From positions 1 through 31,906 of IMG/VR virus record IMGVR_UViG_3300012920_000146: 31,906 nucleotides of DNA; one strand, given 5' to 3'. Below, piece by piece: positions 4,874 through 12,927 of the stretch; positions within the stretch are counted from its first letter, which is position 1, and each line of letters starts with the position of its first letter. This stretch comes from a virus. The translations under genes were made by a program, and so were the position numbers. Below the pieces are notes generated by a model, which searched no databases, was not told the origin of the DNA, and saw nothing but the letters and a program-made list of their open reading frames with translations.

Positions 4874-5040
4874 TGACTGAAAGAAGCAAGAAAGACATGC
4901 TCGCTTCATATGAAGTCGAGCGCGAGATGTTAATCCAAGTGTGGCGACAGCTTACAAAGTGTGAGCGCGACTACGTTGGATACTTGACCCAGAAATGCAT
5001 TCGCATTCGCAAGGAGATTAAAGATGAGCAATCACAATGA
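4873..5040 (+). CDS. 55-aa helical hypothetical protein
   Basis: ATG 4873 shares a base with the preceding TGA (TGATG). The 55-codon product (MTERSKKDMLASYEVEREML..., ending RIRKEIKDEQSQ) is charged and helical with two cysteines. Its end overlaps the regulator gene at 5024 by 17 bases. The clean tiling between two real genes supports it, although there is no recognised domain. Confidence 0.55.
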   Translation: MTERSKKDMLASYEVEREMLIQVWRQLTKCERDYVGYLTQKCIRIRKEIKDEQSQ

Positions 5041-5359
5041 GTTACGGAAGTGCCTGAAGGACTTGACCGACACGCACAAAGAGACAATCAACCTTTTGCA
5101 GGAGGCCGTGGACGCCGAAAGGCAGGCTTATAAAGCCCTGACAGGGCACAAGCTGAAGATTGCCAAGATGCTCAAGCACTACCGGCAGTCTTACGACTTG
5201 ACTCTCGACCAGCTAGCCGAGCGCAGCAGCTTTAGCCGGACTTACATTCACTACGTTGAGAGTGGCAGGCGGTGGGCACCTGACGTCATCGCGGACGTGC
5301 TGCGAGTCTTCAGCGCTATCGACCGCGAGGAGGCTGAAGATGTTCGGAGCCCTGCCTAA
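5024..5359 (+). CDS. Cro/CI-type HTH transcriptional regulator
   Basis: 111 aa from ATG 5024 with AAGGAG about 6 bases upstream. Residues about 1-40 form a helical, partly coiled N-terminus. Residues about 42-96 match an XRE-family (HTH_3) fold: KMLKHYRQSYDLTLDQLAER, then the recognition helix SFSRTYIHYVESGRRW and the closing helix DVIADVLRVFS. Such proteins dimerise on short inverted repeats. It immediately precedes and overlaps (20 bases) the replication initiator gene, so it probably controls the early operon; the inverted repeats at 1340-1352 and 3631-3643 are candidate targets, by inference. No CI-like cleavage domain is present. Confidence 0.8.
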   Translation: MSNHNELRKCLKDLTDTHKETINLLQEAVDAERQAYKALTGHKLKIAKMLKHYRQSYDLTLDQLAERSSFSRTYIHYVESGRRWAPDVIADVLRVFSAIDREEAEDVRSPA

Positions 5360-6173
5360 GTCGATTGTGCTCGACCCCAAGGTAACTCCGCTTGAGAAGA
5401 CGGTGCTACTAGCCCTTGCTGTTCATGCCGACAAGCAGGGCCGGTGCTACCCGTCGCAAAGAGCCTTGTCGGAGCGCCTCGGTGTTAGTCGCAAGTCCGT
5501 CACACGGGCTATTGGATCACTGCGCCACAAGCAATTGTTGCTGGTGGAGGAGCGCAGGAGGGAGGGTGACAATGGCAGGACATCATCTCTATATACCCTG
5601 AACTTCAAGAGATTTGACGATTTGTCCCAGGGTAGGGACATATTGTCCCAGGGTGGAGTCGAGAAGTCCCAGGGGCAGGGACATATTGTCCCACCCCATA
5701 GGACACCAGTGTCCCAACAAGAACAAAACCAATTAACCAAAACCAAAGAACATAAATTTAAACCCATCGTAGACAGCTACAAAAAGCATCTTCCGCAGAT
5801 GAGCCAGCCAAGAGCCTCGAGCCTGAAAGGAACGCTAGGTCGAAAGCTCGCCCGCAGATGGAAGGAGCAGCCTGACGCTGACTGGTGGGACAAGCTGTTC
5901 AAGTGCGTAGCACAGGACGAGTGGTATTCAGGGCAAGGCTCATGGAGCGGAGCAACTTTGCGCTGGCTTGCCGAGCCAAAGAACCTCGAGAAGGCTGAGG
6001 AGCGATTTCACAAGCAGCTTGCTGGCAAGAGCCAAGCTCCCGCTCAACAGGCGCTACCATCTGACCCGTATGAGGCGGCAATCGAACGCGAGCGTCGTCG
6101 CAACCCGCACCTCGAGGGAAGCGCAGAGTGGGAAATGTTCATTGAAGACACCAAACGAAAGTACAGGAGGTAG
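5340..6173 (+). CDS. replication initiator, lambda O-like
   Basis: 277 aa from ATG 5340, chosen for GAGGAGG at about 5327-5333 and the stop/start overlap with the regulator; an in-frame ATG 5256 lacks a site. Residues about 17-70 form a winged helix (LLALAVHADKQGRCYPSQRA, LGVSRKSVTRAIGSLRHKQL) of the HTH_36/initiator type. A low-complexity linker follows (about 90-140; LSQGRDILSQGG, KSQGQGHIVP). The C-terminal part (WWDKLFKCVAQDEWYSGQ, then LRWLAEPKNLEKAEERF) matches phage replication proteins that recruit helicase. The linker DNA itself carries iterons and an A-rich tract, as the lambda origin lies inside gene O. It sits 3 bases ahead of the DnaB-type helicase gene. Confidence 0.82.
   Translation: MFGALPKSIVLDPKVTPLEKTVLLALAVHADKQGRCYPSQRALSERLGVSRKSVTRAIGSLRHKQLLLVEERRREGDNGRTSSLYTLNFKRFDDLSQGRDILSQGGVEKSQGQGHIVPPHRTPVSQQEQNQLTKTKEHKFKPIVDSYKKHLPQMSQPRASSLKGTLGRKLARRWKEQPDADWWDKLFKCVAQDEWYSGQGSWSGATLRWLAEPKNLEKAEERFHKQLAGKSQAPAQQALPSDPYEAAIERERRRNPHLEGSAEWEMFIEDTKRKYRR
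5621..5760 (+). other. putative replication origin (iterons plus A-rich tract)
   Basis: Within the initiator gene there are five direct half-sites NGTCCCA, with their hexamers starting at 5623, 5644, 5665, 5687 and 5710, spaced 21, 21, 22 and 23 bases (about two helical turns). Inverted partners (GGGACA) start at 5635 and 5678, with AGGACA at 5700. Two identical palindromes GGGACA-TAT-TGTCCC lie at 5635-5649 and 5678-5692. Directly after, 5716-5760 is 34/45 A+T (28 A) and could be the unwinding element. This iteron-then-AT-rich order inside the initiator gene is the layout of the lambda origin. Function is inferred. Confidence 0.7.
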
Positions 6174-6176
6174 GAG

Positions 6177-7466
6177 ATGCTTTTCAACGAGACGGCAGAG
6201 CTTGCGATATGCATGGCTGCGAGCGGTATGTGGCACAAGGAGGGCCCTGCGGCGGTGCAGCATGTAGATCCAATGGACTTGGTGGACAAGACTCGCCAAG
6301 ACATTCTCAGAAGCTCACAAGAGATTTGGAAACAGTGTGGCGTCGTCGACGAGACAGCGATCAAAGGCAGTCTCACGCGAAAGGGATACGACGTTGAGAG
6401 TGCGCTTTTTGAAATCAATCATGGCATTGGCTATCACCAGCCAGAGACTTTGCCAGGCATGATAGACACGGTGCGCAAGCTCGCCAGAATTCGTCGAGCA
6501 GTAAGGCACTCGATGGCGGCGCAGGCAGCGATTGACGCCGAGGATATGGATGCTGCCGAGGAGAGCTTTGGCAAGATTGCAAGGACGATGGTCGAGGGGC
6601 GACAGCGCCGTGACGCCAAGAGGCTCTCGGCAATTGCAAAGGATTTGATTGACCAGATTCATTCCCCAGCAACAGACAGAGGCACAGGCATGAGCACTGG
6701 CCTTTATGCTTGGGACAGAGGCTCGCTTGGCCTGCTTGGCTTGCATCGCACACATCTGACGGTGCTTGCGGCTCGACCGGCGATGGGCAAGACGGCCCTG
6801 GCCCTCAACATCGCTTGGAACGTCGCTGCTCATGGGACTCCCGTGTTGTTCAGTTGTGGGGAAATGAGCGCAGTTGAGCTTGGTGAGAGGCTGCTCTCGC
6901 ACATCTCGCAAGTCGATTACTCGCGCATCCGTACCGGCAGGCTGGACGCCGATGCTCACGCTCGACTGGCTGACGCCACAAGAGCCATGGCTGACGCCCC
7001 TTTGCACATTTGGGACGCCGGTCGCGTGACAGCGCCCGACCTTCTGGCCCAGACAAGGCTGGTTTCAGCGCAAGAGGGCAAGCCTGTTGGCCTGCTCGTT
7101 GTTGACTACCTCCAGCGCATGGGGTGCGAACAGCGATATCGCGAGCCTAGACACCGAGTGGCTCACAACGCCGAGGCCCTAAAGAGCATGGCTCAGGACG
7201 AGAATATGTGTGTTCTGGCCCTGGCGCAGCTTAACCGAGGGCTCGAGTCTCGCACCGACAGGCGGCCCCTCATGGCTGACCTGCGCGAGGCTGGTGAGAT
7301 TGAGCAGGAAGCCAACGAGGTCATCGCCTTGTACCGGCATCATGTTTATTTTGAGGACGCTCCTCCGCATGCGGCAGAACTGATTGTTCGCAAGGCGAGG
7401 GGCGCACGCACCGGCAGGATGGACCTGCGGTGGGATGGGAGCACAATGACATTTGGAGACGCATAA
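6177..7466 (+). CDS. dnaB: replicative DNA helicase, DnaB-type
   Basis: 429 aa from ATG 6177 with AGGAGGTAGGAG just upstream. It is a hexameric 5'-3' replicative helicase that opens the fork, here presumably loaded by the initiator encoded immediately upstream. The N-terminal helical domain occupies about 1-110, with a linker to about 165. The RecA-like domain has Walker A RPAMGKT (200-206), catalytic Glu E229 (SCGEM), Walker B LLVVD (306-310) and the H4/arginine-finger region QLNRGLESR (351-359) with RRPLMADLREAGEIEQEA. The length is slightly shorter than bacterial DnaB, as usual for phage versions. Its TAA overlaps the next ATG by one base. No primase domain is fused and no separate primase gene is seen, so host primase is probably used. 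Confidence 0.95.
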   Translation: MLFNETAELAICMAASGMWHKEGPAAVQHVDPMDLVDKTRQDILRSSQEIWKQCGVVDETAIKGSLTRKGYDVESALFEINHGIGYHQPETLPGMIDTVRKLARIRRAVRHSMAAQAAIDAEDMDAAEESFGKIARTMVEGRQRRDAKRLSAIAKDLIDQIHSPATDRGTGMSTGLYAWDRGSLGLLGLHRTHLTVLAARPAMGKTALALNIAWNVAAHGTPVLFSCGEMSAVELGERLLSHISQVDYSRIRTGRLDADAHARLADATRAMADAPLHIWDAGRVTAPDLLAQTRLVSAQEGKPVGLLVVDYLQRMGCEQRYREPRHRVAHNAEALKSMAQDENMCVLALAQLNRGLESRTDRRPLMADLREAGEIEQEANEVIALYRHHVYFEDAPPHAAELIVRKARGARTGRMDLRWDGSTMTFGDA

Positions 7467-7720
7467 TGAGAGCAGATATCGCATGGGAGCACGAGATTGC
7501 TCGACTTAGAGACCTACGAAAAGCTCAAGGGCTCACGCAAATGGGACTAGCAGAGCTTCTTGAATGCTCGCAGGCTGGTCTTCACGAGTGGGAGGTCGGC
7601 AAGAGACAGCCGCGCATCACAACATGGCTGCGATGGAGGGAGGCCTTGGGCCTTCAAGTCCCGTGGGACACCAGCAACACAGACCAGCGACAGCGCTGGC
7701 GTAAATCTATGTCTACTTGA
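7466..7720 (+). CDS. small XRE-family HTH protein
   Basis: 84 aa from ATG 7466, which overlaps the helicase TAA by one base and has TTTGGAGAC upstream. Residues about 12-62 form an HTH_3 domain (LRDLRKAQGLTQMGLAELL, CSQAGLHEWEVGKRQPRI). The basic C-terminus ends RQRWRKSMST. It is the second Cro/CI-like protein of the window and sits directly ahead of a promoter with an inverted repeat (7717-7745). That spacing suggests it may regulate the recombination genes, by inference. Confidence 0.8.
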   Translation: MRADIAWEHEIARLRDLRKAQGLTQMGLAELLECSQAGLHEWEVGKRQPRITTWLRWREALGLQVPWDTSNTDQRQRWRKSMST

Positions 7721-12407: not shown

Positions 12408-12539
12408 CTATAGTTTGTCTGTTTTACGGTTATGTTGAGGCTTTATATTGGTTTTTTTTGAAAATCGCAGCCAGTTTCCTACAGCCGACCCAAAGATCAC
12501 CAAAAAAATTCCTAAAAAAATTAAGCATTTAGCAATCAT
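12408..12539 (-). CDS. possible 43-aa single-span membrane peptide
   Basis: Minus-strand ATG (12537-12539), 43 codons, stop at 12408. Residues 1-20 (MIAKCLIFLGIFLVIFGSAV) are strongly hydrophobic and a basic tail follows (RFSKKTNIKPQHNRKTDKL). It fills most of the 156-base gap between the membrane protein at 12547 and the basic protein at 12390. No good Shine-Dalgarno site is visible, which lowers confidence. Position in the lysis region and the topology fit a small holin, antiholin or spanin-like component. Confidence 0.4.
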   Translation of the reverse strand: MIAKCLIFLGIFLVIFGSAVGNWLRFSKKTNIKPQHNRKTDKL

Positions 12540-12546
12540 GGCGATT

Positions 12547-12927
12547 TTATATTTTGTCGGTAGCGACTTCGACGTATTTGTCGGCTAAAATCTTTTTCTG
12601 ATCACTATTGAGCGTCTCGAGAACAAAGGAAGGGACGCTGGCTGGGTCAACGTACTCTTTAAGCACATTATTGACGATGTCTTCATCAGAGGCTTTGACA
12701 GCCTTGGTTCCCCGCTTGTTTTGGAGCGGCGTCAAAAGGTTTGCAATCTTGAGCACGATCTCGAGAACCTTGTTGTCAACCTTGTTAGGCGTCCATTCGA
12801 CAAGCGCACGCAAAAGCGGCTGGGCCATCATGATAAACGAAGCCACTGTTGCGGCGACCATAACTGCCGGGTTGGCTTTAAACATATCAATGACAAACGC
12901 CACCATTTTAAGGGCTAACTCTTCCAT
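12547..12927 (-). CDS. membrane protein of the lysis region (holin candidate)
   Basis: 126 aa from minus-strand ATG at 12925-12927, with GGGAG about 6 bases upstream, inside the end of the endolysin gene. A hydrophobic stretch spans about residues 8-44 (MVAFVIDMF, ANPAVMVAATVASFIMMAQP), enough for one or two segments. The remainder is charged and helical (VDNKVLEIVLKIANLLTP). It lies 3 bases after the endolysin gene. A holin role is inferred from position and topology; an alternative is an internal virion or antiholin protein. Confidence 0.6.
   Translation of the reverse strand: MEELALKMVAFVIDMFKANPAVMVAATVASFIMMAQPLLRALVEWTPNKVDNKVLEIVLKIANLLTPLQNKRGTKAVKASDEDIVNNVLKEYVDPASVPSFVLETLNSDQKKILADKYVEVATDKI

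Follow-up and report, generated by a model that had tools for sequence, protein, structure and literature searches.

Repeats embedded in the initiator gene of a phage very probably form its replication origin, arranged as in lambda and lying within the linker codons of that gene. The window, that is, the whole stretch of DNA analysed, is one viral record of IMG/VR of 31,906 bases. A lambda-like origin inside the initiator gene had been proposed by a sequence-only reading, and it is still the best explanation. It is carried by the array itself, by selection acting on the DNA, by the domain layout of the protein, by the repeats kept in one relative (L002) and by a correlation between recognition helix and iteron across many initiators. 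Feature coordinates are collected in Table 1.

The initiator consists of an N-terminal winged helix, a disordered linker and a C-terminal replication-protein domain. Its HTH_36 (PF13730) match covers residues 16-66 and scores 49.7 bits against a curated cut-off of 25. This match lies in a replication module, with a DnaB neighbour and with PHROG replication-initiation and O-like matches that cover the N-terminal and C-terminal parts of the protein. AlphaFold2, run with 14 alignment rows, gives a confident winged helix, with helices at residues 17-29, 40-47 and 51-63 and wing strands at 67-73 and 81-87. The part that follows the linker is modelled with less confidence. The matches in the PDB are winged-helix regulators. 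No match to Phage_rep_O (PF04492) was found for the initiator at E ≤ 0.01, while lambda O (6e-36) and P22 gp18 (7e-38) match this family in the same Pfam test. The initiator belongs to HTH_36 and not to Pfam Phage_rep_O, and it probably works in a lambda O-like manner. The DnaB-like gene is followed by a RecE/YqaJ exonuclease gene and then by RecT. Two small HTH_31 genes (5024-5359 and 7466-7717) flank the initiator–helicase pair, and the first shares 20 bases with the initiator start.

Table 1. Features of the initiator gene, its embedded array and the adjacent helicase gene (window coordinates).
Feature	Position	Strand	Basis
Initiator gene (P0001), 277 aa	5340..6173	+	HTH_36, E=3e-13; PHROG replication initiation / O-like families; AlphaFold2 model
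Winged-helix domain, residues 16-88	5385..5603	+	HTH_36; AlphaFold2 pLDDT at least about 90 over most
Recognition helix, residues 51-63	5490..5528	+	AlphaFold2 model and helix/iteron comparison
T55	5502-5504	+	Recognition-helix position tracking the iteron
R56	5505-5507	+	Recognition-helix position tracking the iteron
Iteron half-site 1, TGTCCCA	5623..5629	+	Sequence
Linker, codons 98-166, predicted disordered	5631..5837	+	AlphaFold2 pLDDT <50
Iteron 2, perfect palindrome GGGACATATTGTCCC (TGTCCCA at 5644)	5635..5649	.	Sequence
Half-site 3, degenerate, AGTCCCA	5665..5671	+	Sequence
Iteron 4, perfect palindrome GGGACATATTGTCCC (TGTCCCA at 5687)	5678..5692	.	Sequence
Iteron 5, GGACA-CCAG-TGTCCCA, with near-palindrome GGACA-CCAG-TGTCC at 5701-5714, 4-bp centre (TGTCCCA at 5710)	5701..5716	.	
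A+T-rich tract, 45 bp, 75.6%, candidate unwinding element	5716..5760	.	Composition
C-terminal replication-protein domain, about residues 141-229	5760..6026	+	PHROG 19658 and 5810 matches; low-confidence AlphaFold2 helices
DnaB-like replicative helicase, 429 aa	6177..7466	+	DnaB_C, E=8e-66; PHROG 19, E=6e-67

The array has the layout of an embedded origin. Several iterons at about two-turn spacing (five (T/A)GTCCCA sites, 21, 21, 22 and 23 bp from start to start) lie within the initiator coding sequence, an A+T-rich tract adjoins them on the 3′ side, and the helicase gene is next to the initiator. The linker codons hold the tract and every iteron except the first. The half-sites and their spacing, the two identical 15-base palindromes, the A+T-rich tract beside them and the setting in the linker of a winged-helix initiator gene followed by DnaB had all been read from the sequence beforehand, and each was borne out. 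Poly-A tract aside, the array is the densest hexamer cluster of the window. Only 0.2% of the 45-base stretches in the window are as A+T-rich as the tract. On its own the tract is not unique, since six other places have at least its A+T content. Over the 60 bp that follow the final site, A+T is 70%. As single-stranded DNA, 5615-5720 folds better than shuffled sequences (z=-3.1), as expected because of the palindromes.

This layout can be set against known systems. Lambda O and ori-lambda likewise have mid-gene inverted-repeat iterons about 20-24 bp apart (annotated spacing 20, 24 and 23 bp) and an A+T-rich tract 3′ of them, with 68% A+T over the 60 bp following the last iteron. Both the array map and this comparison support the order of iterons then A+T-rich tract as in lambda. 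Unlike the window, lambda has a Phage_rep_O protein and an iteron of the ATCCCTCAAAACGAGGGA type. Lambda O is followed by gene P, which encodes a helicase loader and not a helicase. The closest gene order is that of P22 gene 18/12 (NC_002371), where an O-like initiator gene with an annotated rep_origin inside it directly precedes a DnaB-like helicase gene. P22 differs in that gp18 belongs to Phage_rep_O, not HTH_36, and in its GGTAAA/TTTACC-like repeats. The proposed likeness to lambda thus stands for iterons and an A+T-rich tract inside an O-type initiator gene. It does not extend to the gene order, which is P22-like and not lambda O-P, or to the protein, which lies outside the Pfam family of lambda O.

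The lambdoid 'replication protein O' genes of mEp013, SfV and ST64B resemble the window initiator in HTH_36 (tested for mEp013) and in having their own linker repeats. These repeats are different, GTGTCAC/GTGACAC and GGTGCA-like, and in neither SfV nor ST64B does an annotated DnaB gene come right after the initiator gene. Gene 4 of the Bartonella run-off replication region has been described as an initiator gene of the lambda-like type that contains palindromes and a dip in GC, upstream of a helicase gene and at a peak of DNA amplification (PMC3610622). This likeness is by description, and gene 4, unlike the window, is a domesticated chromosomal remnant. The Bartonella genome to which L175 belongs was screened for the gene of the run-off region, and the HTH_36 match proved to be an unrelated ORF. 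L175 itself (Bartonella sp. contig NZ_JAQITD010000001.1) has a Mu-like region in which a gene for a ParB-like protein runs on the minus strand (5162-6169). At 5580-5780, the coding sequence of this gene contains the palindromes GGGACAA-TTGTCCC and GGTGCAA-TTGCACC, each twice, and the ParB-like protein is possibly another carrier of its own binding sites.

If the array serves as DNA, its repeats should persist where the linker peptide changes. The viral contigs contained one close relative of the whole initiator, L002, which is 42% identical over the alignment and has a diverged, longer linker peptide. Its gene has TGTCCCA or CGTCCCA repeats at the same place, none of them a perfect palindrome. 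Repeats and spacing were thus kept despite linker divergence in the one case available. The other suggested check, GC skew, was of no help. Cumulative skew over the window shows no turn at 5.6 kb, and its sole turn, at 11.3 kb (peak ~11300), coincides with the flip of the coding strand from plus to minus. A turn only where gene orientation flips makes the skew uninformative, and it neither supports nor opposes an origin at 5.6 kb. Further along the window, about 12411-12550 is rich in poly-A.

HTH_36 genes were then collected from bacterial genomes by domain search, blind to repeats, in two sets (n=133; 64 + 69). The first genomes were reached through loci of a motif scan, with the genes themselves picked by domain score. 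For each gene, repeated hexamers in the linker were compared with versions of that gene whose synonymous codons had been permuted. A self-specific repeated hexamer (p ≤ 0.01) was found in 45 of the 133 genes, 15/64 in the first set and 30/69 in the second, as against 3 of 119 control ORFs taken from the loci of the first set. The 45 genes use 40 different hexamers. Of 67 dereplicated genes with p ≤ 0.05, 60 have more A+T in the 60 bp on the 3′ side of the repeats than over the gene as a whole, with a mean of 0.524 against 0.428 (p=8e-12), part of which linker composition may explain. The window initiator also has such self-specific repeats, a property defined here and not a published criterion. 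TGTCCC is therefore one specificity among dozens in HTH_36 initiators, which share a common scheme. This qualifies the earlier suggestion of an undescribed iteron family. The literature searched, most of it outside subscription journals, contains no account of TGTCCC iterons in initiator genes, as suggested, or of a helix–iteron correspondence, but TGTCCC does not form an isolated family.

These relatives bear on a different use of the repeats, as operators through which the winged-helix protein represses transcription via its own gene body, with the origin elsewhere. Palindromic sites for a winged-helix protein do look operator-like, and a protein bound within a gene can block its transcription. 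We nevertheless consider autoregulation improbable. Five phased sites and an A+T-rich tract exceed what an operator needs, the sites lie ~280 bp into the gene, the repeats of relatives also sit in the linker with an A+T-rich stretch after them, and the neighbouring genes and families are replicative.

The protein that reads the sites can be approached through the recognition helix. Viral contigs were scanned for GGGACA-N3-TGTCCC plus a third half-site. At 22 of 104 viral loci, such a TGTCCC array falls within a winged-helix ORF, after the part encoding the domain, compared with 1 of 120 for control TGTCGC arrays (p=2e-7). TGTCAC arrays do so at 74/120 and TGTCTC arrays at 1/15. Since TGTCTC and TGTCGC arrays are almost never in winged-helix ORFs, they can be used as negative controls. 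TGCACC arrays gave two helices, too few for comparison. Domains were compared after dereplication at 70% identity, which left a mean pairwise identity of 26% in the TGTCCC class. Over the whole domain, no column distinguishes TGTCCC carriers from carriers of other iterons as well as that of window residue T55 (z=7.5), and the R56 position is arginine in all 14 TGTCCC carriers of this set. In the viral collection, the T55 position is T, S, A, C, G or K in 17 of 19 distinct TGTCCC helices and Q, I, M or V in 52 of 56 distinct TGTCAC helices (Fisher p=3e-11; p=2e-7 on distinct five-residue cores). This residue grouping was set after the first comparison had been seen and was kept as it was for the TGTCAC scan. 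Arginine occupies the R56 position in 75 of 75 distinct helices, across both iteron classes.

This rule has exceptions and is not clean: Q occurs in L088 and R in L013; K is found in either class; and L284 and L393 are likewise poor fits. Our prediction for TGTCTC was N or F at the residue matching T55. The only case that turned up has Q there, and the prediction was not supported. The domain tree is poorly resolved and can neither count nor prove independent origins of the TGTCCC class. Two TGTCCC-bearing winged-helix ORFs, L105:2426-3292 (minus) and L098:3926-5320 (minus), have C-terminal parts that by eye resemble the DnaA N-terminal domain, unlike the window C-terminus. The winged-helix and iteron unit seems to have been joined to different loading domains.

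By this correlation, the favoured reader of the sites is the initiator itself, and T55 is favoured as a specificity residue. We think it rather probable that HTH_36 initiators of phages and prophages have their own binding sites in the linker part of the gene with such regularity that a DNA-recognition code can be read from genome sequence alone. Arginine at the R56 position would go with the TGTC core, and the base after it would be selected by the residue at T55: TGTCAC with Q, I, M or V, and TGTCCC with small residues or K. Initiator and origin would then change specificity together, in one gene. Binding by another phage or host protein, such as the HTH_31 product of 5024-5359 or 7466-7717, is very unlikely by comparison; two small HTH genes do flank the module, but across 75 distinct helices the iteron covaries with recognition-helix residues of the initiator itself.

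Selection on the DNA was assessed by recoding the initiator gene 20,000 times with synonymous codons for the same protein. Exact half-sites in 5610-5740 number six, against a mean of 0.67 and a maximum of 4 in the recodings, so that 0 of 20,000 reach six. The two palindromes arose in 3 of 20,000. They are 43 bp apart in different codon phases, which argues against a protein repeat, and the half-sites fall in two reading frames. The half-site count and the two frames together therefore indicate selection on the DNA. A protein-level repeat (SQG.DILSQG) in the disordered linker, with the DNA pattern as its by-product, is very improbable: several half-sites do read SQ or LSQ, but the 21-bp unit occurs in two codon phases, encoding GRDILSQ once and GQGHIVP once, and no recoding reproduces the half-site count.

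We therefore return to the array as an origin and propose how it would work. The initiator winged helix would bind the five GGGACA/TGTCCC sites, probably as dimers on the palindromes. Because the sites are about two helical turns apart, they would lie on one face of the DNA. An O-some-like complex may then form and open the A+T-rich tract, and the C-terminal domain, the putative helicase-recruiting part, would bring in the DnaB-type helicase, whose gene follows that of the initiator. Lambda O is dimeric, the iterons that it binds are inverted repeats, and unwinding requires the A+T-rich tract (PMC7466680). The lambda iterons have been discussed as hairpin-forming too (PMC7466680).

What the array adds lies mainly beyond the window. 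That an origin can lie inside the initiator gene is textbook knowledge from lambda and P22, so the present case is one more example and the novelty of the window itself is low; the helix–iteron correlation is the part worth testing. HTH_36 initiators commonly have this embedded layout, and each has an iteron of its own, so origins of phages and prophages can be located from sequence alone. Many winged helices are now paired with probable binding sites. With these pairs, single-residue swaps can test a long-standing question, namely how the specificities of an initiator and its origin shift together.
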